Source: Devosia geojensis
GTDB taxonomy: Bacteria > Pseudomonadota > Alphaproteobacteria > Rhizobiales > Devosiaceae
Direction of reading: 5' to 3'
NCBI RefSeq assembly: GCF_000969415.1
Contig: NZ_JZEX01000124.1
Span: 62,001-126,000 of the forward strand
Length of the DNA: 64,000 nt
Part shown: one piece after another, positions 951-27,536 of the stretch
Layout of the letters: the number at the start of each line of letters is the position of its first letter
Numbering within the stretch: position 1 is the stretch's first letter
Program-made: the position numbers and the translations under genes
Notes under the pieces: generated by a model
What the model was told of the DNA's origin: nothing
Database searches by the model: none
The model's input: the letters and a program-made list of their open reading frames with translations, nothing else

Positions 951-2132
951 CTAGCTGAAAGGCTTGAGCAGTGCCCTGTCGGCGATCTCCATGCCGAAGC
1001 CGGGTGCCGGACTAAGCTTGAGCCTGCCCTCCCGCGGCAGGTCCTCGCCGGAAAAGAGAGCGCCGAAGATCGGCCGGATCGAACGCCCGTCGGGACTCGC
1101 CGCCACGTATTCGCAGAGCGCCGGGCCTGGCTGGCTCATGATGAAATGGTAGGAATAGGGTCCCGACCCGTGCGGGATGACCGGAATATCGTAGGCCGCC
1201 GCCTGCGCCGCGATCTGCAGGAGCGCAGTCAGGCCCCCAACCCACATCACGTCCGGCTGCAGGATGTCGACGGTGCGCTCCTCGATGAGGCGGCGGAAGC
1301 CGTAGCGGGTGTATTCGTGCTCGCCGGTCGTCCATTTGAGCGTCGGATGCGCCTGCTTCAAAAGCCGGTAGCCCTCGACGTCGTCCGGGTGGAGCACCTC
1401 CTCCCACCAGTAGATGTCGAGGTCGCGCGCCGCCTCGGCGAGGCGGATGGCGTAGGGCACGGTGAGCGACATGTAGCAGTCGACCATCAGCGGATAGCCG
1501 GGCCCGAGCGCCGCGCGGTGACCGGCGAGGAAGTCGACGTTCTGCCGCAGCCCCGCCTCCCCGTCGCCCGGCCCGTGCGGCAGCGGCACCTTGGCGCCCC
1601 AGAAGCCCAGCGCCTTGACCGCATCGGGCGCCGGCCCGGTGCAGTAGAAGGCGATCTCTTCATGGCAGCGTCCGCCGATGAGGTTGTAGACCGGCTCCTC
1701 GCGCATCTTGCCGAGGAGGTCCCAGAGCGCCAGGTCGACGACCGAGATGGTGGCGATGGGCAGCCCTTTGCGCCCGTAGGGCATCGAGGCGCGGAAGAGC
1801 TGGTCCCAGATTTTAGCCACGTTGCGCGCATCCTCGCCGAGGAGGAAGCGGGTAAAGTGGTGGACGACGAGCCAGGCCGCCGGCGGCCCGCCAAAGCCCG
1901 TCGCCACCCCCGTGACGCCCGATGCGGTCTCGATCTCGACGACGATCGAGCCGAGCACCCCGATGCCCCAGGACTGGCGCGATGCCTTCCAGCGGGGGTA
2001 CCCCGACATCGGGTTGGCGATGAGCGTATCGATCAGCCAGTGCCCGCGGCCCTGCTGGAAATAGTCGCCGCCGTTCCCCTCGCTCTCGACGAGATGGACG
2101 CGCACGCCCGTGATGATGAAATCCTTGGGCAT
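951..2132 (-). CDS. rhmD: L-rhamnonate dehydratase
   Basis: Enolase-superfamily enzyme of 393 aa that dehydrates L-rhamnonate to 2-keto-3-deoxy-L-rhamnonate. The N-terminus has the family's typical stretch around residues 20-60 (GGDYFQQGRGHW, then IANPMSGYP and SWGIGVLG). Candidate metal ligands are D218, E244 and E271, and the catalytic dyad is D294/H321 (IPHGSGPYSYH). Length is close to E. coli RhmD. It starts 9 bp after rhaM. The dehydrogenase, mutarotase and transporter beside it fit non-phosphorylative rhamnose breakdown. Confidence 0.93.
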   Translation of the reverse strand: MPKDFIITGVRVHLVESEGNGGDYFQQGRGHWLIDTLIANPMSGYPRWKASRQSWGIGVLGSIVVEIETASGVTGVATGFGGPPAAWLVVHHFTRFLLGEDARNVAKIWDQLFRASMPYGRKGLPIATISVVDLALWDLLGKMREEPVYNLIGGRCHEEIAFYCTGPAPDAVKALGFWGAKVPLPHGPGDGEAGLRQNVDFLAGHRAALGPGYPLMVDCYMSLTVPYAIRLAEAARDLDIYWWEEVLHPDDVEGYRLLKQAHPTLKWTTGEHEYTRYGFRRLIEERTVDILQPDVMWVGGLTALLQIAAQAAAYDIPVIPHGSGPYSYHFIMSQPGPALCEYVAASPDGRSIRPIFGALFSGEDLPREGRLKLSPAPGFGMEIADRALLKPFS

Positions 2133-2468: not shown

Positions 2469-3251
2469 CTATTGCAGGTTGACGAAAAGGCCGCCGTCGA
2501 CGAGGAGCGCGGCGCCCGTGACATAGGCGGCCATGTCGGACGCAAGGAACGCCACGACCCTGGCAACGTCCTCGGGCTCGCCGAACCGGCCGAGCGGGAT
2601 GCGCTTGTCGAGATAGTCGCGCTTTTTGGGGTCCGACCAGTCGTCCTTGTTGATGTCGGTGGCGATGGCCCCCGGCATCACCGAATTGCAGCGAATGCCG
2701 TAGGGCCCGAGCGCGATGGCCGCCGACTGCATCAGCGAATGGACGCCGGCCTTCGTGGGCGTGTAGTGCGTCTGCAGCGCCCCGCCGACCAGCGCCGAGA
2801 TCGAGGAGGTGGCAACGATCGCTCCGCCCGTTCCCTGCGCGTTCATCCGGTTGGCCGCCGCCTGCACGGCAAAGAAGGCGCCGCCGAGATTGACGTCGAC
2901 GACCTGCTTGAAGAGCTCCGCGGGCATGTCGAGGAACGCGTGGAACGGGCAGATGCCGGCGTTGGAGGCGAGCACGTCGACGCCGCCGAATGCGTCGATC
3001 GCAGCCTCGACGAGGGCCGTGCTGACCTGCGGATCGGCGATATCGCCCTCGACGGCTATGGCCCGGCGCCCCAGCGCCTCGATCTCGGCCACCACCTCGT
3101 CGGCCGCGGTATCGCGGGCAAAGCCCTTGTCGGCCCCGGCATAGTAGTTGACGACCACGTCCGCCCCCTGCCGGGCGAATTCGAGGCAGATGCCCCGCCC
3201 GATACCGCGCGAGCCTCCGGTGACGATTGCGCGCTTGCCCTCGAGCAGCAT
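2469..3251 (-). CDS. SDR oxidoreductase, probable L-rhamnose 1-dehydrogenase
   Basis: Short-chain dehydrogenase of 260 aa with cofactor motif TGGSRGIG at 11-18, NAG at 97-99 and catalytic S150, Y163, K167. It ends in the usual SDR tail (VTGAALLVDGG). It lies between the sugar permease and rhaM, which fits L-rhamnose 1-dehydrogenase (LRA1 type) making L-rhamnono-lactone. A purine-rich AAGGGGGAA precedes the ATG. The substrate call is from context. No lactonase gene is visible nearby. Confidence 0.85.
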   Translation of the reverse strand: MLLEGKRAIVTGGSRGIGRGICLEFARQGADVVVNYYAGADKGFARDTAADEVVAEIEALGRRAIAVEGDIADPQVSTALVEAAIDAFGGVDVLASNAGICPFHAFLDMPAELFKQVVDVNLGGAFFAVQAAANRMNAQGTGGAIVATSSISALVGGALQTHYTPTKAGVHSLMQSAAIALGPYGIRCNSVMPGAIATDINKDDWSDPKKRDYLDKRIPLGRFGEPEDVARVVAFLASDMAAYVTGAALLVDGGLFVNLQ

Positions 3252-8413: not shown

Positions 8414-8474
8414 TTTGTCCAATTCATGCCGAAGCAGCGGAACGAACCGCAGGGCGCAAGGGAGCGAGGAACGC

Positions 8475-9197
8475 GTGCCGGTCAGTGATTTCAGCGGGGA
8501 AGCGCCTCTGAAGCGGGCGGGGCTCACCGAGCTCCTCGTCGCGCGCATCCTCGGGCTCGTCACCACCGGCAGCCTCAAGCCCGGCGACCAGTTGCCGCCG
8601 GAGCGCAAGCTCGCCGAGACCTTCCACGTCTCCCGCCCGACGCTGCGCGAGGCGCTGCGCGCCCTTGCCGTCCTCGGCGTCGTCGAGGTGCGCCACGGCG
8701 GCGGCGTCTTCGTCTCGCGGCTGGAGGCGAGCGACCTGCTCGGCCCCCTCACCTTCTTCCTGACGCTGCGCTCGACCGAAGTCGACAAACTCTACGAGGC
8801 GCGCCGGCTGATCGAGGGCGAGATCGCCGCGCTCGCCGCAGAACGGGGCGATGCGGCTGCCCATGACGAGCTCGAAGCGCTGATCGACCGGCAGGAGGAG
8901 GCCAAGGCCGACCCCGCCCGCTACCGCGACGTCGACACAGCCTTCCACAAGCGCCTCGGGGACCTCGCCGGCAACGAATTCCTCGCCCGCGCCGCCCAGA
9001 GCCTCAACATCCTCGGCCAGGAGTTCCGCAAGATCGCCTCCGAGACGCCCAACGTCATCGCCACCTCCATCGCCGACCACCGCGCCGTGCTCGCCGCCAT
9101 CCGTGCCGGCAATCCCGCGGAAGCGCGCGAAGCGATGGCGACCCACATGGACCACGTGCTGCAATCGACCAAAGCCTCGATGGGGAGCAAGCCATGA
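8475..9197 (+). CDS. GntR family (FadR/FCD subgroup) transcriptional regulator
   Basis: Regulator of 240 aa with an N-terminal winged helix-turn-helix (about residues 15-80, including GDQLPPERKLAETFHVSRPTLREALR) and a C-terminal all-helical FCD ligand domain (about 100-225) with the usual D/H metal residues (DTAFHKRL, DHRAVL, THMDHVL). The GTG at 8475 is preferred because GAGGA lies just upstream. An upstream TTG at 8415 would overlap the operator region. The stop overlaps the next start by ATGA, so the regulator is part of the catabolic operon and probably controls it. Confidence 0.92.
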   Translation: MPVSDFSGEAPLKRAGLTELLVARILGLVTTGSLKPGDQLPPERKLAETFHVSRPTLREALRALAVLGVVEVRHGGGVFVSRLEASDLLGPLTFFLTLRSTEVDKLYEARRLIEGEIAALAAERGDAAAHDELEALIDRQEEAKADPARYRDVDTAFHKRLGDLAGNEFLARAAQSLNILGQEFRKIASETPNVIATSIADHRAVLAAIRAGNPAEAREAMATHMDHVLQSTKASMGSKP

Positions 9198-9973
9198 CCG
9201 AACGCCGCTGGGGCATCGATAAGGTGACGCAGGATGACATCCGCAAGGGCGGGTTCTCGACCCCCTGGGACGCGCCGTTCGTACCGCCCTTCCCCTTCAC
9301 CTTCCGCAATGCGCAGATCCTGACGGTCTTCTGGCGCACGGACCCCGCCGCCCTCGCCTTCCTCGCTCCGCCGCCGGTCGTGCCCGTCGGCGACCTCGTC
9401 TGCATCCACATCTACAAGATGAACGACACCAGCTGGATCGGCCCCTACCACGAGGCCAACGTCATGTTCGGCGCGCGCCTGCCCTCTGGCGGGAGCGGCG
9501 CCTATTCGCCCTACCTCTTCCTCTCCTCGGACGGCGGCGTCGCCCATGGCCGCGAGGTGCACGGGCAGCCCAAGAAGCTCGCCGATCCGTTCCTCGACTT
9601 CCGTGGCGACCTGATCGTTGCCGGCGTCGAGCGCAACGGCATCGACGTGGTGACCGTCACCACGCCATATAAACAGCGCTTGGCGGACCCGGCTGAGATG
9701 CGCGCCCATTTCGATTTTTCGACCAACCTCAACCTCAAGGCCATCGACCACATCGATGGTCGCCCGGCTATCCGCCAGATCACCTCGCGCAAGCTGACCG
9801 ATGTCGTCGTCCACGAATGCTGGCGGGGGCCGGCGACGGTGGAGCTGCGGCCCAACGCGCAGGCGCCGGTCTTCCGCCTGCCCGTCCTGGAGCCGCTCGA
9901 AGCCTTCTATTGGCGCGCCGACTTCACCCTGGTGCCGGGCGAGATCCTCCACGACTATCTCGAGGGCCAATGA
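9194..9973 (+). CDS. Acetoacetate decarboxylase family protein
   Basis: A 259-aa member of the ADC-like superfamily. The active-site region REVHGQPKKLADP (120-132) keeps the lysine pair K127/K128, one of which would form the Schiff base. Many ADC-like proteins act as aldolases or dehydratases on keto acids rather than on acetoacetate. In this operon of sugar-type dehydrogenases, a role on a keto-sugar acid is plausible. It is coupled by 4-bp overlap to the regulator and by short overlap to the next gene. Confidence 0.87.
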   Translation: MTERRWGIDKVTQDDIRKGGFSTPWDAPFVPPFPFTFRNAQILTVFWRTDPAALAFLAPPPVVPVGDLVCIHIYKMNDTSWIGPYHEANVMFGARLPSGGSGAYSPYLFLSSDGGVAHGREVHGQPKKLADPFLDFRGDLIVAGVERNGIDVVTVTTPYKQRLADPAEMRAHFDFSTNLNLKAIDHIDGRPAIRQITSRKLTDVVVHECWRGPATVELRPNAQAPVFRLPVLEPLEAFYWRADFTLVPGEILHDYLEGQ

Positions 9974-10953
9974 TGCGCGTCGTCGTCACCGACTATACCT
10001 TTCCCGCGCTCTCTGCCGAGGAGGCCGCCGCGCGCGCCGCCGGCGCCGAGTTCGCCGCCTTCCAATGCCGCACGGGCGAGGAGGTCGCCGAGGCGGTGAA
10101 GGGCGCCGATGTCGCGGTCGTGCAGTTCGCCCCGATGACGCGCGCGGCGATTGCCGGACTTGCCCCAAACGCCGCCGTCATCCGCTACGGCATCGGCTAC
10201 GACAATATCGACCTCGCCGCCGCCAACGCGCATGGCGTGCCCGCCGGATACGTGCCCGACTACTGCCTCGACGAGGTCGCCGACCACACCACGGCGCTGA
10301 TCCTCTCGTTGCTGCGGAAAATCCCGCCGCTCGACGCGAGCGTGCGGCGCGGCGAATGGGCGGCGGTCAAGATCGCCTCGCCCCTGCCCGCCTATGGCGA
10401 AACGACCATCGGCCTCCTCGGCCTCGGCCAGATCGGCCGCGCGGTGGTCAAGCGCCTTGCCCCTTCGGGCTTCCGCTTCATCGTCGCCGATCCGGCGCTC
10501 GACGAAGCGACCGCCGCCGGCCTCGGCGTCGAGCGGGTGACGGCCGACGCGCTCGTCGCGCGCGCCGACGTGCTGAGCCTCCATGTTCCGGCGACGCCCG
10601 AGACCACCGGCTTCGTCAATGCCGAGCGCCTTTCGCGCATGAAACGCACGGCCGTCCTCGTCAACACGGCCCGCGGCGCCCTCGTCGACGAGGCGGCGCT
10701 TGCCGCCGCGCTCGCGAGCGGCACCATCGCCGGCGCCGCCCTCGACGTCTTCACGACCGAGCCGCTGCCCGCCGATTCGCCGCTGCGCGATGCGCCGAAC
10801 CTGATCCTCACGCCGCACGCCGCCTGGTATTCGGACGCGGCGATCACGCGCCTGCAGCAGCTCGTCGCCGACGATATCGCGGCCCATCTTGCCGGCCGGC
10901 CGCTGCGCCGGCCCGTGCCCGAATCGATCGCCGCCAGGGGAGGAGTGCGATGA
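9970..10953 (+). CDS. D-isomer specific 2-hydroxyacid dehydrogenase
   Basis: NAD-dependent dehydrogenase of 327 aa. The dinucleotide motif GLGQIG is at 151-156, and the catalytic triad is R235 (NTARGALVD), E264 (FTTEP) and H283 (TPHAAW). It resembles the CtBP/phosphoglycerate dehydrogenase-like branch. The first ATG at 9970 overlaps the previous stop by 4 bp, and a second ATG follows at 9973. It would interconvert a 2-keto acid and a D-2-hydroxy acid in the pathway encoded here. Confidence 0.92.
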   Translation: MMRVVVTDYTFPALSAEEAAARAAGAEFAAFQCRTGEEVAEAVKGADVAVVQFAPMTRAAIAGLAPNAAVIRYGIGYDNIDLAAANAHGVPAGYVPDYCLDEVADHTTALILSLLRKIPPLDASVRRGEWAAVKIASPLPAYGETTIGLLGLGQIGRAVVKRLAPSGFRFIVADPALDEATAAGLGVERVTADALVARADVLSLHVPATPETTGFVNAERLSRMKRTAVLVNTARGALVDEAALAAALASGTIAGAALDVFTTEPLPADSPLRDAPNLILTPHAAWYSDAAITRLQQLVADDIAAHLAGRPLRRPVPESIAARGGVR

Positions 10954-16827: not shown

Positions 16828-16929
16828 AACCCACCCCGCGCCCTTGCGCCCTTTCGTCCGCCGCCTTTTGTCTGTAGGCAATTGGCGGCGGCCTGCCGAA
16901 GGCGGCAGGCGGGAACAAAGGGGGCGCAT

Positions 16930-17946
16930 GTGAAAGTGTTCATCACCGGCACCGCCGGCTTCATAGGCTTTCATCTCGCCAGGCGCCTGCTCGCCGATGG
17001 TCATCAGGTCGTCGGCTTCGACGGGATGACCCCCTACTACGACGTGTCGCTGAAAGAGAGGCGCCACGCGCTTCTCAGGCGCTCCAACGCCTTTTCCGCC
17101 GTCGAGGCGATGCTCGAGGACAGGGATGCCCTGGAAGCGGCCGTCGCCGGCTTTGCCCCCGAAGTGATCGTCCATCTCGCCGCCCAGGCGGGCGTGCGTT
17201 ACAGCATCGAGCACCCCGAGAGCTACATCGGCGCCAATCTTATCGGCACCTTCAACCTGCTCGAGACCGCGCGGGCGCATCCGCCCGGACACCTCCTTAT
17301 CGCCTCGACCTCCTCGGTCTATGGCGGCAACGAGAAGATGCCGTTCGTCGAGGCCGACCGCACCGATTTCCCCGCCTCCCTCTATGCCGCGACCAAGAAG
17401 GCGGGAGAGGCTATGAGCCACTCCTATGCCCACCTCTTCCACCTGCCGGTCACCTGCTTCCGCTTCTTCACCGTCTACGGGCCCTGGGGCCGGCCCGACA
17501 TGGCGCTCTTCAAGTTCGTCTCGGCCATCGAGAACGACGAGCCCATCGAGGTCTATGGCGAGGGCCGGATGCAGCGCGACTTCACCTATGTCGACGACCT
17601 TGTCGAAGGCGTCGTCCGGTTGATGGCCGCCATACCCGAGACCGGCCACCCCGTCATGGCCGAAGGCGTCACCGATTCCCTCTCGCCCATCGCCCCCTGG
17701 CGCTGCGTCAATGTCGGGGGCGGCCAACCGGCGGGCCTCATGGACTTCATCGCCACCATCGAAACGTGCCTCGGCCGCGTCGCGAAGAAGACCATGCTCT
17801 CCATGCAGCCCGGCGACGTCACCGAGACCTTCGCCGATCCGGCCCTGCTCGAGGCATTGACCGGCTACCGCCCGCAGACCGGCATCGAGGAAGGTGTCCG
17901 CGCCTTCGTCGACTGGTATCGCGCCGACTACATGGCCGCGAGCTGA
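16930..17946 (+). CDS. UDP-glucuronate 4-epimerase (NAD-dependent epimerase family)
   Basis: A 338-aa extended SDR: the Rossmann motif TGTAGFIG is at the N-terminus, SSVYGGN and YAATKKAGE give the catalytic residues, and [14 protein letters not shown] is typical of nucleotide-sugar 4-epimerases. Length and sequence fit UDP-GlcA 4-epimerases (LpsL/Cap1J type), which make UDP-galacturonate. GTG at 16930 is chosen because a GGGGG site precedes it and the Rossmann strand begins at once. It pairs with the UDP-glucose dehydrogenase 140 bp downstream, which supplies its substrate. Confidence 0.88.
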
Positions 17947-18086: not shown

Positions 18087-19433
18087 ATGCGCATTGCGAT
18101 GATCGGCTCCGGCTATGTGGGGCTCGTCAGCGGCGCCTGCTTTGCCGATTTCGGCCATGAGGTCGTGTGCGTCGATCTCGACGCCGGCAAGATCGCCGCC
18201 CTCGAACGTGGCGAGATCCCGATCTTCGAGCCCGGCCTCGACCGGCTGGTGGCCGACAACGCCTCCGCCGGCCGGCTGCGCTTCACCACCGACCTCGCCC
18301 CCGCCGTGGCGCAGGCGGACGTCGTCTTCATCGCCGTAGGCACGCCCTCGCGCCGCGGCGACGGTCATGCCGACCTCTCCTACGTCCACGCCGCCGCCGC
18401 CGCCATCGCCGGGGCCGTCGAGGGCTTCACCGTCGTCGTCACCAAGTCGACGGTTCCCGTCGGCACCGGCGACGACGTCGAGCGCATCATCGCCGAGACG
18501 AACCCGCGAGCCGACGTCGCCGTCGTTTCCAATCCCGAGTTCCTGCGCGAAGGCGCGGCGATCGAAGACTTCAAGCGCCCCGACCGCATCGTCGTCGGGC
18601 TCGAGGACGAACGGGCCCGCGATGTGATGACCGAGGTCTATCGCCCGCTCTACCTCAACCAGGCGCCGCTCCTCTTCACCGGCCGGCGCACCGCCGAGCT
18701 CATCAAATACGCCGGCAACGCGTTCCTCGCCATGAAGATCACCTTCATCAACGAGATCGCCGATCTCTGCGAGAAGACCGGCGCCAACGTCCAGGACGTC
18801 GCGCGCGGCATCGGCCTCGACAAGCGCATCGGCCCCAAGTTCCTCAATGCTGGTCCGGGCTATGGCGGCTCGTGCTTTCCCAAGGACACCCTCGCTCTCG
18901 TCAAGACCGGGCAGGACTATGACAGCCCCCTGCGGCTCGTCGAAACGACTGTGGCCGTCAACGACCAGCGCAAGCGCGCCATGGGACGGCGGGTGGTCGC
19001 CGCGCTCGGCGGTTCGGTCCGCGGCAGGACCGTCGCCATCCTCGGCCTCACCTTCAAGCCCAATACCGACGACATGCGCGAAGCCCCCTCCATTGCCATC
19101 ATCCAGGCGTTGCGGGACGCCGGCGCCAGGGTGCGGGCCTACGACCCGGAAGGGATGTCCGCCGCCCGCGCGCTGATGGAGGGCGTCGACTATGCCGACA
19201 ATGCCTACGCGGCCGCAGAAGGCGCCGATTGCCTGGTGCTGGTGACCGAATGGAACCAGTTCCGCTCCCTCGACCTCAAGCGGCTCCGCGCGGCAATGGC
19301 GACGCCGCTCTTCATCGACCTGAGGAACGTCTACCGGCGCCGCGAAGTCGAGGCGGCCGGCTTCACCTACCACAGCATCGGCCGGCCGGGAGATGGGGAA
19401 GCCCATATCCCCGAGAGTGCGGCGGCAGAATAG
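18087..19433 (+). CDS. ugd: UDP-glucose 6-dehydrogenase
   Basis: A 448-aa enzyme that oxidises UDP-glucose to UDP-glucuronate. It has the N-terminal MIGSGYVGLVSGACFADFGH, a central domain with GPGYGGSCFPKDT carrying nucleophile C263, and a C-terminal UDP-binding domain (ILGLTFKPNTDDMREAPS). GGGAGGGG lies upstream of the ATG. With the neighbouring epimerase it gives a uronic-acid supply for the polysaccharide made by this locus. Confidence 0.96.
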   Translation: MRIAMIGSGYVGLVSGACFADFGHEVVCVDLDAGKIAALERGEIPIFEPGLDRLVADNASAGRLRFTTDLAPAVAQADVVFIAVGTPSRRGDGHADLSYVHAAAAAIAGAVEGFTVVVTKSTVPVGTGDDVERIIAETNPRADVAVVSNPEFLREGAAIEDFKRPDRIVVGLEDERARDVMTEVYRPLYLNQAPLLFTGRRTAELIKYAGNAFLAMKITFINEIADLCEKTGANVQDVARGIGLDKRIGPKFLNAGPGYGGSCFPKDTLALVKTGQDYDSPLRLVETTVAVNDQRKRAMGRRVVAALGGSVRGRTVAILGLTFKPNTDDMREAPSIAIIQALRDAGARVRAYDPEGMSAARALMEGVDYADNAYAAAEGADCLVLVTEWNQFRSLDLKRLRAAMATPLFIDLRNVYRRREVEAAGFTYHSIGRPGDGEAHIPESAAAE

Positions 19434-19512
19434 CAGGAAAGAACGTCACGCTGTTGGGGGGCACGACGAAACGCGGGCAAGTTGCGGAATACGCAAACGA
19501 TGGAGCCATGAC

Positions 19513-20772
19513 GTGAAGCTCCTCGTCCTCGGCCTCAACTATGCCCCCGAGAAGGTCGGCACCGGCGTCTATACGGCCGGCATGGCGGAGGCGATCGCGC
19601 GTGTCGGCCATGAGGTGCGGGTCATCGCCGGCAAGCCCTACTATCCGGCCTGGCGGCTCGTCGAAGGCCACCGGGCCTTCACCTTCGACGGCGACCGCGA
19701 AGCGGGCGTCGAGATCACGCGCGTGCCCCACTACATCCCGGCCTCACCCACGGGTCCCAGGCGCCTGGCCCATCACGCGAGCTTTGCCGTCTTCAGCGCC
19801 TTTCCCCTCATCTGGCAGGCGCTGACCTGGCGTCCGGACGTCGTCATGGCGATCGCCCCGTCGCTCGCCGCCGCGCCTGCCGCGCGCATCGCCGCAGGCC
19901 TCTGTGGCGCGCGGTCCTGGCTGCATGTCCAGGACTTCGAGGTCGAGACCGCCTTTGCCACCGGCCTCATCAAGGCGGACGGATATCTGGGCGTTTTCGC
20001 GCGCGCCTTCGAAAAGCGGGTGCTGACGGGGTTCGGCACGCTCAGCACCATCTCCCCGCAGATGTGCGCCAAGCTCGCCGAAAAGGGCGTACCGTCCGAT
20101 CGGATCGTCGAGCTGCGGAACTGGGCCGATACCGAGGGCATTCGTCCGCTCGCCACCCCGTCGCGCTATCGGCAGGAATGGGGAATCGCGACGCCCCATG
20201 TCGCGCTCTACTCCGGCAACATCGCCAACAAGCAGGGCATCGACATCGTCGTCGAGGCTGCCCGGCGCCTTGCGCACCGCACCGACCTCACCTTCGTCGT
20301 CTGCGGCGAGGGGTCCAATCGCGCCGACCTCACGGCCCGGGTGCGCGGCCTTGCCAATTTCCGCGTCCATGACCTGCAGCCGAGGGAACGCCTAAATGAC
20401 CTCCTCGGTCTCGCCACCATCCACCTGCTGCCCCAACTGGCCGGCGCCGCCGACCTCGTGCTGCCGAGCAAGCTCGCCAACATGCTCGCATCGGGCCGCC
20501 CGGTGGTCGCGACCGCTGCACCCGGCACCGGCCTTGCCGCCGAGGTCGAGGGCTGCGGCCTCGTCACGCCACCTGCCGACGCCGGCGCCTTCGCCGACGC
20601 CATCGTTCGCCTGATGGACGATGCCGGGCTGCATGCGCACGCATCGGCAGCGGCGCGGGAGCGGGCCGTCGAGCGCTGGAGCGGCGAGGCGATCCTGGCG
20701 CGCCTCGTGCCGAAACTGATCGATCCCACGCCAGCAGGATATGCTCCCGCGGACGAACGCGCCGGCTCCTGA
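19513..20772 (+). CDS. Glycosyltransferase family 4 protein, WcaI-like
   Basis: A 419-aa GT-B fold glycosyltransferase. The N-terminus (LLVLGLNYAPEKVGTGVYT) and the long N-terminal domain resemble WcaI of colanic acid synthesis. The C-terminal nucleotide-sugar domain has LYSGNIANKQGID and the segment LPSKLANMLASGRPVVAT. GTG at 19513 is chosen, with GGAG 7 bases upstream. It lies 79 bp after ugd on the same strand. The sugar donor and acceptor are unknown. Confidence 0.88.
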   Translation: MKLLVLGLNYAPEKVGTGVYTAGMAEAIARVGHEVRVIAGKPYYPAWRLVEGHRAFTFDGDREAGVEITRVPHYIPASPTGPRRLAHHASFAVFSAFPLIWQALTWRPDVVMAIAPSLAAAPAARIAAGLCGARSWLHVQDFEVETAFATGLIKADGYLGVFARAFEKRVLTGFGTLSTISPQMCAKLAEKGVPSDRIVELRNWADTEGIRPLATPSRYRQEWGIATPHVALYSGNIANKQGIDIVVEAARRLAHRTDLTFVVCGEGSNRADLTARVRGLANFRVHDLQPRERLNDLLGLATIHLLPQLAGAADLVLPSKLANMLASGRPVVATAAPGTGLAAEVEGCGLVTPPADAGAFADAIVRLMDDAGLHAHASAAARERAVERWSGEAILARLVPKLIDPTPAGYAPADERAGS

Positions 20773-20780
20773 TCGGGTCA

Positions 20781-22109
20781 TCACGCCAATCGGGATCGCG
20801 TGGTGCGCCACCCGCAGACCGCCACCAGCGGCGCGAGCACCGTGATGAGGCTCGTATCCCCGTTGAAGGGCCCCGAATTGTGCACGAGCACATGCACGAT
20901 GAAGGAGAAGAGCGCATAGAGCGCCACCCGGCCCGTCGCCGCCACCGTGGCGCTGTCGCTCACGCGGGCCCTTTGCGCCGCCCGCAGCATCAGCCAGTAG
21001 AAGACGCCGATGAGAACGACGCCCTGCACGCCGTAGTAGATCGCGAAATTGATGAAATAGTTGTGCGGCTCGAAGGTGCCGATCGCAAAGCGGGCGACCA
21101 CGGCATGCTCGTTCCAATAGATATCGAGGCCGAGCGCGGCTTCGGCGAAGCTGGCAAAGCCGATGCCGAACGGCATGGCGGCGATCTGGTGGAGGGCCGC
21201 CTCGAGCAGCACGCCGCGTGACGCGGAGCTGAAATCGTCGGTCGACAGGAACCGTCCTTCGCCGAACTCGGCAACCACCAGGACCGCGCTATAGGCGATC
21301 AGGAGCCCGATGCCGATGAGCGCCAGCGCGGCCGGCCTGTCGGCCTTGCGGACCCGCAGGAACGCGGCAAGGGCGAGCAGGACGACGAGCGCAACGACAG
21401 CGGAGCGCGTGCCGCTGAGGATCGTCGCTGCACCGTTGACGAGGAACAAGAGGAGCAACAGCCGCCGCGCCCCTCCGGCCAACAACCCGAGAGAAATGGC
21501 CGCTCCAAGCAGGCTGATATAGGAGAGCCGGACGGGGTCGGCCGTCAGCCCCGCGACCCGCCCGTCGAGGCGGTAGCCGGTCGGGATGGCTTCGGCAAAG
21601 AACCCCTGCACCTGCCAGGCGACCGCGAGATCAAGCGCCTGCAGCACCGCTAACACGCTGCTCATGCTGGCGGCGGCCAATACAACAGCGATCAATCGCA
21701 GCGGCCGGTTGCCGCAAAGAGCGATGAGCGCGACGAGGAGCACCGTCGGCTGGACGAAGAGGATGACCGCGGTCCTCGTCGAGAAGTTGCCGGCAAGTAC
21801 CGCCACCGCCAGCGCATTGAAGACGATGAGCCCGACGAGAGCGAGAAGCTGGAGATGAAACCGGTTGACGGTCAGGCTTCCCCGCCGCAGCGCGGCATGG
21901 ACGATCCCCGCCAGCGCAAGCGCGAGCAACGCCGCGGTCAGCAGGTATCGCACCTGCACCCCCGCCACGGAAACCCTCGGCGAATAGAAGAACAAGAGCT
22001 CGATGCTGAGGACCGCGAACAGGCAAGCAAAGACGGCAACGTCCCTGAGGCCCGTTCGCCGCGGCGAGACATCGGTGCGACGCTCCGCCGTCGCGATTGC
22101 GACGGTCAT
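20781..22109 (-). CDS. O-antigen ligase/polymerase family membrane protein (Wzy/WaaL-like)
   Basis: A 442-aa inner-membrane protein with about ten to twelve hydrophobic segments. The ligase-domain hallmarks are the SGTRSA segment near 240 and the periplasmic-loop sequence EPHNYFINFAIYYG near 350. Families of this type either polymerise polysaccharide repeats or ligate glycans, and sequence alone does not separate these. It is the second gene of a two-gene minus-strand unit, with a 4-bp overlap with the upstream glycosyltransferase. It converges on the WcaI-like gene with 8 bp between the stops. Confidence 0.86.
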   Translation of the reverse strand: MTVAIATAERRTDVSPRRTGLRDVAVFACLFAVLSIELLFFYSPRVSVAGVQVRYLLTAALLALALAGIVHAALRRGSLTVNRFHLQLLALVGLIVFNALAVAVLAGNFSTRTAVILFVQPTVLLVALIALCGNRPLRLIAVVLAAASMSSVLAVLQALDLAVAWQVQGFFAEAIPTGYRLDGRVAGLTADPVRLSYISLLGAAISLGLLAGGARRLLLLLFLVNGAATILSGTRSAVVALVVLLALAAFLRVRKADRPAALALIGIGLLIAYSAVLVVAEFGEGRFLSTDDFSSASRGVLLEAALHQIAAMPFGIGFASFAEAALGLDIYWNEHAVVARFAIGTFEPHNYFINFAIYYGVQGVVLIGVFYWLMLRAAQRARVSDSATVAATGRVALYALFSFIVHVLVHNSGPFNGDTSLITVLAPLVAVCGWRTTRSRLA

Positions 22110-23293
22110 ACCCGCTCCCCGATCATGGCGCCGCTCTGCATCACGCTTTCGACGACGGCAAGATAGCGGTCGATCCAGCGCTCATACCCGTGCTCGCCGC
22201 CGATGAACGCCATCCGCTCGGCCCGGTCGCCCGGTGCTGCCAGAAGCCCGAGCATCGCCTTGGCCATGGCCGGCGCATTCCCGACCGGCACCAGCCGCCC
22301 GCAGGCAGGATCGGTCATGATCTCGCGCGCGCCGCTGCGGCAGTCGGTGGCAACGCAGGGCGTCCCGGTCGCCAGCGCCTCGATGAGCGCATTGGGACTT
22401 CCCTCCCAGCGCGACGGCAACACGAAGAGATCGGCGCGTGCCATGTAGGCATAGGGGTTCTCGACGAAACCGGGCATCTTCACCGTCCCCGCCAGCCCGA
22501 GCCTGGCCACGAGCCTCGTCAGCGTCTCGCGCAGTTCGCCTTCGCCGAGGATGATGAGCCGGGTGGGCCGCACCGCGTTGACCTCGGCCATCGCCGCCAG
22601 CAGGGTCTCGAACCCCTTCTGCGCCGTCAGCCGGCCAGCGGTCACCACCACCGGCGCCGGCCGGTCCGGGCCCAGCCACGGCTCCTCGACGGGCTCGCGG
22701 CTGCGCCTCAAAACCTCCGCCTGGTCGACGCCGTTGCCGATGAGGGCAATATCGTGCGGCGCCCGGCCGATCATCGCGGCCAGATCCTCGCGCGCTGCCT
22801 GCGAAAGCGCGATGAATCCCCCCGCTCTCCTGTAGAGGAAGGGGACGAAGGGAGCCCACAGCCGGGACTGGCCTTTGAGGGGCACGGATCTGATGATGTT
22901 GGGCTCGCGGACGATGAGCGGATTGCGCAGCCATCCGGCGGCCACGCACAGCCCCGCCACGCGGCTGAGATTGGCCTGGCACGAAAGCAGCACCGCCCCC
23001 GGGCTCCGCCGCGACCAGGCGCTGAGGCCCCGCGCCATCGACCAGGGACTCCTGCCGACCACATGAACCTCGACAGAAGCCGGCAGCAGGGCGCCATAGC
23101 TGCCGGCCCCGCTGGCGACGATCATGTCGACCTTCCACCCGCGCGCGATGAACCCGCGCGCCAGGTTGACCGCCACCCGCTCGGCGCCGCCGCCGCCCAG
23201 CGACATCGCCGCCAACCCGATGTGTCCGCGTCTCGCGGCGCTTGCCTCGCTGCGCCTGGCATCGGCGGCCAGCACCGCGTCCGCTTCGCTCAT
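22106..23293 (-). CDS. Glycosyltransferase family 4 protein
   Basis: A 395-aa GT-B glycosyltransferase. The N-terminal glycine-rich loop is SLGGGGAERVAVNLARG, and the C-terminal donor site has GRLTAQKGFETLL and the E-x7-E motif in SRWEGSPNALIEALATGTP. ATG at 23293 with GAGGA upstream is preferred over a TTG at 23326. It overlaps the ligase-like gene by 4 bp and is divergent from the next glycosyltransferase, so 23294-23467 holds promoters for both directions. Confidence 0.9.
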   Translation of the reverse strand: MSEADAVLAADARRSEASAARRGHIGLAAMSLGGGGAERVAVNLARGFIARGWKVDMIVASGAGSYGALLPASVEVHVVGRSPWSMARGLSAWSRRSPGAVLLSCQANLSRVAGLCVAAGWLRNPLIVREPNIIRSVPLKGQSRLWAPFVPFLYRRAGGFIALSQAAREDLAAMIGRAPHDIALIGNGVDQAEVLRRSREPVEEPWLGPDRPAPVVVTAGRLTAQKGFETLLAAMAEVNAVRPTRLIILGEGELRETLTRLVARLGLAGTVKMPGFVENPYAYMARADLFVLPSRWEGSPNALIEALATGTPCVATDCRSGAREIMTDPACGRLVPVGNAPAMAKAMLGLLAAPGDRAERMAFIGGEHGYERWIDRYLAVVESVMQSGAMIGERV

Positions 23294-23467
23294 GCCGTCC
23301 TCGCCCCCACGCGTCCTGCCCCACAAAGGTCTACAGTTCGCAGCCTCAGGCGTAAACGATATTTGCGCAGATCAGTCTTATGGCGAGCGTTGAGTTAAAC
23401 CGCTTGCTTTCTTCGGGTTTGCCCGCAGAGTTGGACCCTGGTGATACAGTCGTTCATGCGGGGGCTC

Positions 23468-24562
23468 ATGAAGATAGTCCACTATGCCACCTCCCTTTCC
23501 CGGTCGGCCGGCGGCCTTTACTACTCGGTCTCGGGTCTCGCTCAGGGATTGGCGGACCTTGGCGCCGATATCACCGTCATCGGCGGCGCCGATCGGCATT
23601 TCGCGGAGGACCGCGCGGTCTGGGGCGACGTGCCGGTGCGTCCTTTCCCCTTCCGTTTCGGCCGTTACGGTCTCGATCCCGGCATCCTGCGCGAGCTTGC
23701 CCGGTTGAAACCGGACATCCTCCACATCCACGGCATCTGGTCGGCCGCCTCCGCCTATGGCCGGCTGGCGGTCGCCCGCGGCATCGATGTAATCGTGTCT
23801 TCGCATGGCATGCTCGATCCGTGGATCCTGGCCCGGCGCCCGCGCCTCAAGGCGCTTCATGCCTGGCTCTTCGAGCGCCCGATGCTGACAAAAGCGCACC
23901 TCCATGCGCTGAACCAGGCGGAGCGCGAGGCGGCTCTCGCCTATATGCCCGATCTTGCCCGCCGCACCTTCGTGGTGCCCAACGGCATATCGGCAGCGGA
24001 TGACGCGGATACCGCCGGCGTCCGTTCCGGCATGCTCTATCTCGGGCGCCTGCATGAAAAGAAACAGGTGCTCGAGCTGATCCGCGCCTGGGCCGCCGTG
24101 CCCGGCCTCCGAAAGGAACGGCTGACAATCGCCGGTTGGGGGGAGAAAGCCTACGAGACGGAAGTCGCGGTTCTTGCCGCGTCGACGCCAGGCGTATTCT
24201 TCGTCGGTGCGCTCTATGGAGAGGCCAAGGCCGCGGCGCTGCGTTCGGCCGCGTTCCTCGTGTTGCCATCGCTGAGCGAAGGCTTGCCGATGGCAGTGCT
24301 CGAGGCCCTCCAGTTCGGAGCCATCCCCCTGATCACCGCCCAGTGCAACCTGCCCGAGCTCTTCGCCCACGATATCGCCCTGCCGATTTCCTCCGATTTC
24401 CGCGATTTTCCGGACATCGCGACGGCCGCTTTCGCCATGTCTCCGACCGAAAAGGCCGAACGCGCGACGAGCGCCCGCGCCTATGCAAAGCGGTATCTCT
24501 GGACGGACGTCGCCCGCCAGATGCTGGATCACTACCGCCGCATCCGCGAGGCTCGGCCATGA
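23468..24562 (+). CDS. Glycosyltransferase family 4 protein
   Basis: A 364-aa GT-B glycosyltransferase: MKIVHYATSLSRSAGGLYYSV at the N-terminus, HIHGIWS in the acceptor domain, YLGRLHEKKQVLELI and PSLSEGLPMAVLEALQFG in the donor domain (E-x7-E pattern). ATG at 23468 follows a GGGGG run, while ATG at 23456 and an earlier start at 23441 are less likely. It is coupled by ATGA overlap to the acetyltransferase gene downstream, so the two probably act on the same glycan. Confidence 0.9.
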   Translation: MKIVHYATSLSRSAGGLYYSVSGLAQGLADLGADITVIGGADRHFAEDRAVWGDVPVRPFPFRFGRYGLDPGILRELARLKPDILHIHGIWSAASAYGRLAVARGIDVIVSSHGMLDPWILARRPRLKALHAWLFERPMLTKAHLHALNQAEREAALAYMPDLARRTFVVPNGISAADDADTAGVRSGMLYLGRLHEKKQVLELIRAWAAVPGLRKERLTIAGWGEKAYETEVAVLAASTPGVFFVGALYGEAKAAALRSAAFLVLPSLSEGLPMAVLEALQFGAIPLITAQCNLPELFAHDIALPISSDFRDFPDIATAAFAMSPTEKAERATSARAYAKRYLWTDVARQMLDHYRRIREARP

Positions 24563-25155
24563 CATCGACCGACCGTCCTTCAGTTATCCTCGATGCGGGC
24601 CGGCATGATACGCTTGCCGGGGCCCCGTCCTTCACTCTTTCCAACCGCCTCTTTCGCTTAGCCTGGGTCCTGGCCTGGCTTGTGCTGGCGCGTTGGACAC
24701 CGCCGCCCTTCCATCGCTGGCGCGTGCTGCTGCTCAACCTCTTCGGCGCCAAGGTTGCGGGAAATGCGCGCGTCTATGCCAGCGCCAGCATCTGGTACCC
24801 GCCCAATCTCGTGATGGGTTCGCAGGCGACCCTCGGACCCGGCGTCATCTGCTATGCCATGGATCGCATCATCATCGGCGAGCGCGCCGTCATTTCCCAA
24901 CGCGCGCATCTATGCACCGGCACGCATCTCCTCGACGACCCAAATTTTCAGCTCGTCGCCCGCCCCATCGAGATCGGCGCGCAAGCCTGGGTGGCCGCCG
25001 AGGCCTTCGTCGGCCCCGGCGTCACAATCGGGCAAGGTGCGGTGCTCGGAGCCCGGGGCGTCACTGTCAAGGACCTCGAGCCGTGGACCATCTATGCCGG
25101 TAATCCGGCAAGACCCATCGGGCGGCGCACGCCGTTCGTCAGTCGCCTCACCTGA
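24559..25155 (+). CDS. WcaF-like acetyltransferase (left-handed beta-helix)
   Basis: A 198-aa acyltransferase. A hydrophobic region at about 35-70 precedes hexapeptide repeats (NARVYASASIW, NLVMGSQATLG, IIIGERAVISQRAHLCTGTH, then VGPGVTIGQGAVLGARGVTVKD). The GNPARPIG ending is typical of WcaF/CysE-like sugar O-acetyltransferases. It would decorate the exopolysaccharide with O-acetyl groups. It overlaps the preceding glycosyltransferase by 4 bp and converges on the SGNH gene with a 3-bp gap. Confidence 0.88.
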   Translation: MTSTDRPSVILDAGRHDTLAGAPSFTLSNRLFRLAWVLAWLVLARWTPPPFHRWRVLLLNLFGAKVAGNARVYASASIWYPPNLVMGSQATLGPGVICYAMDRIIIGERAVISQRAHLCTGTHLLDDPNFQLVARPIEIGAQAWVAAEAFVGPGVTIGQGAVLGARGVTVKDLEPWTIYAGNPARPIGRRTPFVSRLT

Positions 25156-25158
25156 GCA

Positions 25159-27078
25159 CTACCAGCCTATGGCCTCGTGCGCCTGCACGAAGGCCGACGC
25201 GACGAGGGCATAGCCGGCGTCATTGAGATGAACGTCGTCGGAACGCAACGAGCGGGGAGTAAGGCCCGCCGCGATATCCGCCGCATCGCCGGACGAGCCA
25301 TCGCCCGCCGCCTGCAGAACCGCCAGCAAATCGACGAAGCGCCGGCCATGGGCGGAAGCAAGATGGGCATTGCGCGCCGCGATGGCCGCGATCGCGGCGG
25401 CACTATCGCCTGCGGACGGCAGGATCGCCCCGACGAGGAAGCGGCCATGTCGCAGATGCGTCGCTATTGCGGCAATGTCCTCTTCGACCGAAAATCCGGA
25501 CTGCGCGCCGTTCCGCCCGAGCCAGAGCCAGTGCGTGCGGGGGTGCAGGCTCTCCCCGAGCCTGGTGATGAACCGGGAGCCGGGCGGACAGGCGACGGGC
25601 GGTCCGTCGCTCATGCGCGTGAACGTCCAGTTGCCCGCCGCATCCGTCGTCATCATGCCCGCGACACCCGCCAACGAGCCTGCCTGACTGCCGACGAAGG
25701 CGCCCGAACCGATGAGGATGTTGACCGATTTGTCGGTGACGGCAACCGGGCCCGAGGCGGGGATGGTGTCGCTGGCAACGCTCACCGATATTGGCCTTGC
25801 ATTCATGCGCGCGGCGATCTGCGTCGAGCTCTGCCCGCCTATGCCCATATTGGCCACCGCGCGTGGCGGCGTGAGAAGGGCCGCTGCCGCAGAAGGATAG
25901 CCGCCTGCACCCGTCGAGCCGGCGCCCGCGGTCAGGCTGTCGCCCCAGGCGGCGACGAGCCACGCCGGCGCGCAGGCGAGGTTCTCGACCTCGAAGGCGC
26001 TGCAGGGGCCGGCGTGAACAGTGGTCCGAAGGACTTCCCCCGTCCAGGCATAGCCGGTCGCACCGTGGCCGATGCGCATGGCAGCCAGGCCCGGCATCTG
26101 TCCCGACATGTCGGCAACCGCCTGCCGGCCGTCGAGACTGGCGACGAAGGCGTTGGCGCTTGCCGAAAAAGCGACGGTGAACGCCGTATCGGCCGGCACG
26201 GTGCCGAGATCGAGATTGGCCTGCTCGACGGCAGTCCCGGTCGCCCCGCTCGAGACGATAAGGCGCAGACGCTGCGTGCCGTCGCGCACGAGCCGCACGA
26301 AGTTGCGCTCGAGGGGATTGCCGAGGTTGCTGGCCGCATCATCTGCCTGCCAGAGGATCTGCATGCCCGCAGCGCTTGCGGGCGTACGCGCCGCCACCAC
26401 CACTCTGATGCCGCCGGCAACAAATCCGGGAAATGGCACCGCCTCCTTCATCGACATGGCCTCGAACAGCGCCGTGCCGGTCATCGGGTTGCCGTAGGAC
26501 TTGCCACCGAAAAGACCTCCCAGGGGAATACCGCCACAATGGATGATCCCTTCGACCATGGTCTGGCCGGGCGCGGCGGTGGACTGACTGAACGCATCAG
26601 GGGCTCCACCGCTGGAATTGAAGACACCGATGGTGACGCTGTTGTTCTGTGTCCCGCGCGCATAGCGCCCCTTGAAGCGGTAAGCCTTTCCTGATCCGGA
26701 ATGACTTCCGATCAGTTGGGCGACGACGGGCGAATTCGCCCCGCCGCCCGAGAGCAGGCCGACCCCACCCATCACCGCGAGCGAGGCGGCGCCCGATGTC
26801 TGCCAGCCGGTCGTGCCGGCGCTGAAATCGCCGTTCGTCAGCAGTTCCGGCGCGTCATCCGCCACATGAGGACCGAACCGGTGGCCGCCCGCAACCACCG
26901 AGCCGCCGAGCGCGGCAAGGAACGCAGCTTCCGTCGCGGCCGGCGCGCCGCCTATCAAGAAACGTCCGCGGGCGAAATCCGCATCGAACAGCGCCGGCGG
27001 CGTATTGCCTGCGCGCCGGCGCGAGACGCATACGCTGCCCTGCCCGCCGGACAGCGCTACCGCACCCGCCCCCAGCAT
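25159..27078 (-). CDS. Large SGNH-hydrolase domain protein, putative spike protein
   Basis: A 639-aa protein. The N-terminal half (about 75-365) is Gly/Ala/Ser-rich and beta-type, with two carbohydrate-binding-like parts (LLTNGDFSAGTTGWQ; a LamG-like stretch near 220-365). The C-terminal half is an SGNH hydrolase: S381 (GDSLTAG), glycine block near 415 (GIGGQS), N523 (GRN) and D614/H617 (DDVHLND), with a beta-rich insert at 425-505. SGNH enzymes often remove acetyl groups from polysaccharides. The ATG overlaps the stop of the spike base gene (TGATG). A role as a virion or GTA spike acting on capsule is inferred. Confidence 0.75.
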   Translation of the reverse strand: MLGAGAVALSGGQGSVCVSRRRAGNTPPALFDADFARGRFLIGGAPAATEAAFLAALGGSVVAGGHRFGPHVADDAPELLTNGDFSAGTTGWQTSGAASLAVMGGVGLLSGGGANSPVVAQLIGSHSGSGKAYRFKGRYARGTQNNSVTIGVFNSSGGAPDAFSQSTAAPGQTMVEGIIHCGGIPLGGLFGGKSYGNPMTGTALFEAMSMKEAVPFPGFVAGGIRVVVAARTPASAAGMQILWQADDAASNLGNPLERNFVRLVRDGTQRLRLIVSSGATGTAVEQANLDLGTVPADTAFTVAFSASANAFVASLDGRQAVADMSGQMPGLAAMRIGHGATGYAWTGEVLRTTVHAGPCSAFEVENLACAPAWLVAAWGDSLTAGAGSTGAGGYPSAAAALLTPPRAVANMGIGGQSSTQIAARMNARPISVSVASDTIPASGPVAVTDKSVNILIGSGAFVGSQAGSLAGVAGMMTTDAAGNWTFTRMSDGPPVACPPGSRFITRLGESLHPRTHWLWLGRNGAQSGFSVEEDIAAIATHLRHGRFLVGAILPSAGDSAAAIAAIAARNAHLASAHGRRFVDLLAVLQAAGDGSSGDAADIAAGLTPRSLRSDDVHLNDAGYALVASAFVQAHEAIGW

Positions 27079-27338
27079 CAGACGAGCCCGACGATCGAGG
27101 CTGCGGTCGTTGCGGCGAGCACCTTGTCGACCCGCACCGGCAACAGGGCCCCGTCCGGCACGTTAGCGAAGCTGACCACCGCGCCCCACTGCATCTCGAC
27201 GACGAGATCGCCGCCGATGCCGACGTAGAGCGCCCGCGTGGTCAGGGGGAGGGCATTGGCGTCATGCGGCTCGATGGCGAACGCCCCCGACGCCGGCGAG
27301 GTGAGGCTTGCCGATTGATCGGCATAGGGATCGGTCAT
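27078..27338 (-). CDS. Spike base protein, RCAP_Rcc01079 family
   Basis: An 86-aa protein with the layout of the Rcc01079 spike base family: a DPYADQSASLTSPA-type start, FAIEPHDANALPLTTRALYVG, a middle with GGDLVVEMQWG, and a short ending with LPVRVDKVLA. In Rhodobacter capsulatus the family member is a gene transfer agent head-spike component that helps bind the recipient's capsule. The pair found here (base, then large partner) has the same order as rcc01079-rcc01080. No other phage or GTA structural gene is in the window. Confidence 0.8.
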   Translation of the reverse strand: MTDPYADQSASLTSPASGAFAIEPHDANALPLTTRALYVGIGGDLVVEMQWGAVVSFANVPDGALLPVRVDKVLAATTAASIVGLV

Positions 27339-27381
27339 GACCTGTCTCCGTTCTTCAAACTGCGGACAAGTCTAGGCCGCT

Positions 27382-27395
27382 CCCCGCATGCGGGG
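27382..27395. repeat. 14-bp palindrome between divergent genes
   Basis: CCCCGCATGCGGGG is a perfect palindrome in the 198-bp space between the spike base gene (minus) and the M20 peptidase gene (plus). It lies about 45-60 bp upstream of the spike base start codon. It could be an operator or simply a GC-rich palindrome. No T-run follows. Confidence 0.4.
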
Positions 27396-27536
27396 ATAAC
27401 ATCGCGATTACCCAATTTTATCAGTCATTTGATCCGGCATGCCCTCGCGTCCCGGAGAAGGTGGACCGCGTGGCATGGACATCGCCCCCGCCCTCGCGCC
27501 ATTGTGCGCACACCGTTGATCCCGAGGATTGTCCCC

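Follow-up and report, generated by a model that had tools for sequence, protein, structure and literature searches.

A 64,000-nucleotide stretch of the Devosia geojensis genome (assembly GCF_000969415.1, contig NZ_JZEX01000124.1, positions 62,001 to 126,000; hereafter the window) carries, beside genes of exopolysaccharide (EPS) type, a pair of genes for a small spike base protein and a long fibre. Homology to RcGTA, the gene transfer agent (GTA) of Rhodobacter capsulatus, lends good support to the reading that this pair encodes the head spikes of the bacterium's own RcGTA-type particles. We further propose, and consider reasonably probable, that these spikes bind the cell's own EPS and remove O-acetyl groups that an adjacent WcaF-like acetyltransferase places on it, spike and coat being thus matched within one genome. 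Evidence for this proposal comes from the Devosiaceae as a whole, where spike fibres with an SGNH hydrolase domain and the acetyltransferase gene occur together (positions of all features are given in table 1).

An earlier, sequence-only reading of the window had described an 86-residue base and a 639-residue protein overlapping by one base. Both open reading frames are confirmed on the minus strand, the second starting one base inside the stop of the first, with base 27078 common to the two. The smaller protein scores 103.1 bits against NF048002, "spike base protein, RCAP_Rcc01079 family" (cut-off 28), and matches Rcc01079 in PDB entry 6tb9 (E 3e-9) as well as phrog_12296 (E 1.2e-18); it is the only spike base match in the whole genome. 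The larger one matches the tail fibre family phrog_11419 (E 1.4e-40). The scores against NF048002 and the PDB entry leave the head-spike assignment of that reading well supported.

The AlphaFold2 model of the fibre (mean pLDDT, the predicted local distance difference test score, 84.2) shows three parts. At the disordered N-terminus, MLGAGAVALSGG alternates small and hydrophobic residues and loosely fits an alternating hydrophobic/glycine anchor; the RcGTA fibre is anchored by its residues 2-10, IALGLGLGL (PMC7296036). The middle part, to judge from the model, likely binds carbohydrate: Foldseek matched CBM40 and LamG-type domains, and the fibres of relatives contain CBM_4_9 and, weakly, Laminin_G_3. 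The C-terminal part is predicted to fold as an SGNH hydrolase over residues ~370-639, the fold being seen with VIA-align, while the top 50 Foldseek matches held no SGNH fold and consisted of carbohydrate-binding sandwiches and similar domains. An alignment of 17 rows (the window and 16 relatives) shows no variation at G379-D380-S381, G414 or H617, and at least 90% of rows keep N523 and D614, so the catalytic set named in the sequence-only reading (S381, a glycine block, N523, D614/H617) proves real. PF13472 barely recognizes the window fibre (33.8 bits; cut-off 32.9). Among phage sequences, PDB entry 9sij matches the window-type SGNH profile; the SGNH region found 17 weak matches in phage records, 16 of them in Gordonia/Arthrobacter phages and all with coverage of at most 37%, and a scan of viral contigs, which reaches close relatives only, returned six pattern stretches and no relative of the window domain.

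Window-type SGNH domains were found by profile in 17 of the 61 fibres of the family, and other SGNH domains in four further fibres (L107, L144, L137 and L125); PF13472 matched three of the 44 fibres remaining after the profile search. Records of Devosia aurantiaca H239 and D. faecipullorum contain the base, and their loci, L092 and L093, have SGNH fibres. Relatives of the window's WcaF-like gene (E <=1e-20) occur in 24 of 136 Devosiaceae genomes, in one place each. Counted genome-wide, such a gene is present in 19 of 21 genomes with an SGNH fibre against 3 of 53 other base-bearing genomes (Fisher p 1.4e-12); in some of these 53 the fibre is absent, broken or truncated where a contig ends. Within fetched loci with visible fibre and flank the contrast is 17 of 19 against 2 of 37. 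In 17 SGNH loci the gene is encoded on the strand opposite to the base, 1.7-4.7 kb downstream of it. The idea itself came from the window, L043 and L049, all of which are counted; without them the SGNH figure is 16 of 18. Likewise, L125 was relabelled as SGNH after standing out as an exception (the earlier table read 18 of 20 against 4 of 54, p 1.7e-11); downstream frames were then listed for 18 loci with a missing, short or displaced fibre, and Pfam was run on nine frames, eight of them from those 18.

The association also holds when shared ancestry is considered. On a capsid tree covering 60 of the 74 base-bearing genomes, with G502 represented by a fragment, there are at least 12 changes of the SGNH state and at least 11 of WcaF, and the Pagel test favours correlated change (likelihood ratio 41.4, p ~2e-8). 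Ten supported independent pairs differ on average 7.9 times in the same direction and never in the opposite one, with no difference in 2.1 (p ~0.008). These pairs come from a later, careful tree with genome-wide labels; an earlier quick tree with 49 labelled rows had given five (three same, none opposite, p 0.25) and a Pagel p of 1e-6. Custom scripts were used for the Pagel and Fisher tests. At the level of gene content, the association lends support to an idea that the sequence-only reading had floated, namely that the spike may deacetylate the organism's own polysaccharide.

That reading had also called for a search for GTA genes in the genome, and the outcome is positive. On separate contigs of the draft assembly we find a capsid (C189; E 1.2e-91 to RcGTA Rcc01687), a megatron domain (C60; GTA_TIM, 454 bits), a tail fibre of DUF2793 (C26), which is the family of the RcGTA tail fibre (PMC10883770), and a GafA-like protein of DUF6456 (C17; 114.8 bits, cut-off 26.3), the family of GafA homologs (PMC9638019). 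Contig C55 adds a terminase operon, with TerL identified by PF03237 and the small preceding gene, which has no family match, called TerS by its position and by eye. This TerL is 53% identical to a TerL found in genome G402 behind the same promoter-like motif (see below) and has no significant match to the terminase of a prophage on contig C191; searches of the PDB gave no useful match and those of NCBIfam none, nor any for two small terminase-like genes. The operon probably belongs to the GTA. Judged from its genes alone, then, the genome holds an RcGTA-type GTA, and a genome devoid of one, the case that would have spoken against the sequence-only reading, is excluded because the capsid, megatron, tail fibre, GafA-like protein and probable terminase are all found. 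Separate from these, contig C191 carries an HK97-type prophage (L037, G000:C191:17000-36999) whose capsid was recognized by hidden Markov model (HMM) and PDB matches and its portal, protease and terminase by eye.

A promoter-like motif precedes the pair. In the family, TTATCCCCG-N15-YTAnnCT recurs upstream of the spike base, mostly 55-70 bases from its start; of 76 upstream regions, 53 contain TTATCC and 16 the strict motif, compared with 70 and none, respectively, of 3960 control windows. A slightly looser pattern has 14 matches in the D. geojensis genome, compared with one for a reversed control, and three of the 14 precede GTA-type genes, namely the C55 terminase operon, the DUF2793 tail fibre and the head spike. 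As for CtrA sites, suggested in the sequence-only reading, no exact full site (TTAA-N7-TTAA) occurs within 200 bases before the base gene in 76 family loci; it is the motif described above that the spike shares with other GTA loci. It presumably resembles a DnaA box. The N-terminal domain of GafA resembles the DNA-binding domain of DnaA, and gafA is preceded by a small DnaA-like gene in most Hyphomicrobiales (PMC6363796, PMC9638019). The motif could help to map the GTA regulon of Devosiaceae. In L275, L276, L278, L280 and L283, similar TTATCCCCGC...CTATCCT copies lie at most ~100 bases from contig ends, followed by similar sequence; they form a repeat family that contains the promoter-like motif.

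The genomic placement of the spike base differs among families. The gene was detected in 51 of 397 genomes of the order, and in Devosiaceae in 74 of 136. In other families of the order it lies at most 0.8 kb behind g15, the megatron gene, in 11 of 38 fetched loci, with g15 at 9.4 kb in one further locus; g15 appears in none of 75 fetched Devosiaceae loci (the window not counted). Instead, EPS-type genes accompany 61 of 69 Devosiaceae base loci of at least 10 kb against none of 20 control loci, which were cut from 20 of the genomes at round coordinates chosen arbitrarily. The queries were taken from the window, L038, L043 and L049, so that three of the 61 loci were hit by queries of their own, and some queries (epimerase, glycosyltransferases) are general; five stricter queries give 53 of 69 against none of 20. 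Thus the pair belongs to the GTA cluster in some families and to a coat locus in Devosiaceae. In G390 (L074, base at 2603-2857, minus strand) the base lies ~85 bases behind g15 and is followed by what looks by eye like a DUF2793 tail-fibre gene, and both receptor-binding loci may still be inside the GTA cluster there. In two sister genomes (G202 and G499; L040 and L105) the base stands just behind a Wzc-like gene, no fibre was found, and an L,D-transpeptidase gene follows.

Fibres of the family are variable downstream of a conserved start. Of 61 loci that have a fibre, 54 keep its one-base overlap with the base gene, and the alternating small/hydrophobic N-terminus, a pattern set after viewing the sequences, is present in 42 of 60 fibres and, for comparison, in 84 of 667 other genes. 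Lengths range from 156 to 640 residues, some fibres being cut or broken, and the 44 fibres outside the window type have a mean column identity of 13%. By analogy with RcGTA, this fits a constant N-terminal plug joined to exchangeable receptor-binding parts. A distinct long type in L117 (also, by eye, in L106 and L108) matches PHROGs phage hydrolase and tail-fibre families, and is possibly another coat-active enzyme. In L125 the base is flanked by SGNH-like genes on opposite sides and strands (8426-9769, minus; 10170-10937, plus), with the WcaF-like gene adjoining the first; perhaps a fibre exchange has been caught midway here.

On these grounds we envisage the following mechanism. The base would assemble into the virion as pentamers on the capsid vertices, and the fibre would plug into them by its flexible N-terminus. 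Its beta-sandwiches would bind the cell's own EPS, and the SGNH domain, acting as an esterase, would hydrolyse the O-acetyl groups put there by the adjacent WcaF-like enzyme. Binding followed by deacetylation would let a particle cling to the coat of sibling cells and make its way through it. The genes for the spike and for the enzyme that modifies its receptor are close neighbours and are jointly gained and lost; such linked inheritance would keep the target of the particle matched to the coat of its producer. A broader version may well be correct too, although we hold it tentatively and stop short of favouring it: Devosiaceae would possess a swappable write-and-erase cassette for self-recognition, in which the acetyltransferase writes an O-acetyl mark and the spike esterase reads and removes it.

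Should that be the case, cassette exchange would redefine who receives DNA from whom and couple coat type to gene-exchange group, and other fibre types would be matched likewise to other coat chemistries. An open question for GTAs is why a cell dies to send DNA and how that DNA stays among relatives; it has been argued that receptors made of polysaccharide can confine delivery to clones or close relatives (PMC10883770). In the present case the enzyme that likely modifies the receptor is encoded next to the one by which the particle likely binds it, and the two change together across a family. The linkage makes the idea testable gene by gene, and the spike type found in a sequence could be used to predict the chemistry of the coat.

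Several observations weigh against the proposal. The likeness of the fibre to Rcc01080 lies in its loosely anchor-like N-terminus and gene position, and the probable assignment of the C55 operon to the GTA draws on the motif and on comparisons with the G402 TerL and the prophage terminase. The other 11 of the 14 motif matches precede other or unidentified frames or fall in repeats, so that the motif is not exclusive to the GTA. For G319, G408, G414, G422, G427 and G431, reading the listed matches by eye showed no strict motif in the region 4-6 kb upstream of the capsid. In 14 of the 74 base-bearing genomes no capsid at least 63% identical to that of the GTA is found; three have one of 45-47%. 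For L103 and L113, two of the 17 fibres assigned to SGNH by profile, Pfam gives no SGNH match. The association itself has exceptions: G443, where the contig ends just behind the fibre, and G502 have SGNH without WcaF, and G242, G435 and G484 have WcaF with no SGNH found, the G484 fibre having related sandwich domains and stopping before any SGNH domain. G428 has a broken base with an SGNH-like remnant and no WcaF. In G460 and G480, WcaF is present and no base was found. Finally, a correlation between SGNH and WcaF distances persists once the capsid tree is allowed for (partial r 0.64, n=15), as it also would for neighbours that are simply inherited together.

This last point leads to the main rival, linkage without function, which we regard as unlikely: base, fibre, acetyltransferase and the next glycosyltransferase would travel as one recombination cassette, with SGNH and WcaF associated merely as neighbours. 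Both the distance correlation given the capsid tree and the position of WcaF downstream of the base in 17 SGNH loci would be expected from it. However, the association extends to SGNH fibres, recognized by Pfam, that the window-type search had missed (the profile in L107, L144 and L137, tblastn in L125), and WcaF lies in the locus in three of these four, the fourth genome (G493) having it on another contig; moreover, the match in chemistry follows from the SGNH fold.

Two further explanations deny the pair its place on a GTA particle, and both seem to us improbable. The pair might derive from a phage, such as the HK97-type prophage on C191, whose capsid is indeed in the genome; base relatives occur in 82 phage records, in L080, L091 and L150 base copies lie at most 10 kb from more distant, phage-type capsids, and 14 base-bearing genomes have no close GTA capsid. 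Against such a remnant stand the single copy in an EPS locus with no phage gene among its annotated neighbours, the presence of the base in 74 of 136 species of the family and inside the GTA cluster in other families, and the motif common to the DUF2793 tail fibre and to a terminase operon unrelated to the prophage's. The fibre might otherwise be a cell-surface or secreted esterase that has left the particle and now tailors the host coat, an exaptation to which we give very little weight. SGNH domains are common in EPS modification; the EPS setting and the genomes that have the spike but in which no close GTA capsid was detected also agree with this view. Against it stand the one-base overlap of fibre and base genes, seen in 54 of 61 loci, the anchor-like N-terminus common among fibres and the motif held in common with other GTA-type loci. 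We retain, as the most probable, the reading of the pair as GTA head spikes directed at the cell's own acetylated EPS.

The spike pair is flanked by EPS-type genes on one side and by an M20 peptidase gene on the other (table 1). No phage gene was seen among the HMM-annotated genes between 14.4 and 29.5 kb of the window, in agreement with the sequence-only reading, which had noted no other phage gene beside the pair. The acetyltransferase scores 165.1 bits against NF007797 (WcaF; E 1.3e-48), and because this is below the curated cut-off of 192 we call it WcaF-like only.

Table 1. Features of the spike locus in the window, with further copies of the promoter-like motif
Feature	Position	Strand	Basis or remark
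Head-spike base protein, Rcc01079 family, 86 residues	27078..27338	-	NF048002, PDB 6tb9, phrog_12296
Predicted head-spike fibre, 639 residues	25159..27078	-	phrog_11419, AlphaFold2 model
Fibre residues 1-25, disordered N-terminus MLGAGAVALSGG, proposed anchor in base pentamer	27004..27078	-	pLDDT <50
Fibre residues ~30-357, beta-sandwich domains, likely carbohydrate-binding	26008..26991	-	strand pattern of model; Foldseek
Fibre residues ~370-639, SGNH/GDSL hydrolase domain, S381/G414/N523/D614/H617	25162..25971	-	alignment, predicted fold
Promoter-like motif TTATCCCCG-N15-CTAGACT, before head spike	27369..27399	-	31-61 bases before spike-base start (G000:C36:89369-89399)
Motif copy before terminase operon	L281, ~1501-1531		
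Motif copy before DUF2793 tail fibre	L256, ~1501-1531		
WcaF-like polysaccharide O-acetyltransferase, adjoins fibre, convergent	24559..25155	+	NF007797, Hexapep
Family-4 glycosyltransferase (EPS)	23441..24562	+	PF13439, PF13692
Glycosyltransferase group 1 (EPS)	22106..23326	-	PF13692, E 1.1e-34
Wzy_C / O-antigen ligase-like membrane protein	20781..22109	-	PF04932
WcaI-family glycosyltransferase	19393..20772	+	NF007640, 485 bits, cut-off 276
Nucleotide sugar dehydrogenase (UDP-glucose 6-dehydrogenase-like)	18087..19433	+	TIGR03026, 457 bits, cut-off 189.8
NAD-dependent sugar epimerase/dehydratase	16882..17946	+	PF01370, E 1.1e-53

The closest known system is that of the RcGTA head spikes Rcc01079/Rcc01080 (ghsA/ghsB), with which the window shares a homologous base and, more loosely, an anchor-like peptide at the N-terminus of the fibre. 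In contrast, the RcGTA fibre has 325 residues (PMC7296036), whereas that of the window has 639 and includes a predicted SGNH hydrolase domain, is adjoined by an O-acetyltransferase gene and belongs to a Devosia-like host of a different order. The position against capsule genes, pointed out in the sequence-only reading, is not unusual, since head-spike genes beside capsule genes have already been described in R. capsulatus (PMC10218006). The base family, the pair and its place beside capsule genes are known. As far as the titles, abstracts and passages searched show, what is new is the esterase-type GTA head spike, here a prediction, its acetyltransferase association, the replacement of one fibre type by another at the same site and the motif common to separate GTA-type loci; among them we found no published report of an acetyl-linked GTA spike or of a Devosia GTA spike. 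The RcGTA tailspike TspA (Rcc02623) is likewise a GTA-associated enzyme acting on extracellular polysaccharide, but it is a loosely attached baseplate tailspike that degrades biofilm and not a head spike, and the term "SGNH" is absent from the text that describes it (PMC13420450). Chemically, the nearest counterparts are the SGNH tail fibres and spikes of phages (Klebsiella prophages, Escherichia coli phage G7C, PDB 9sij), virion-borne proteins predicted, and in some cases shown, to deacetylate surface polysaccharide and tied to particular capsule loci; two Klebsiella prophage fibres are active esterases, and a G7C fibre deacetylates lipopolysaccharide (PMC13123978). Those are tail proteins of phages, whereas the protein in the window is a predicted head spike of a particle serving its host, encoded in the host's own coat locus beside an acetylating enzyme.

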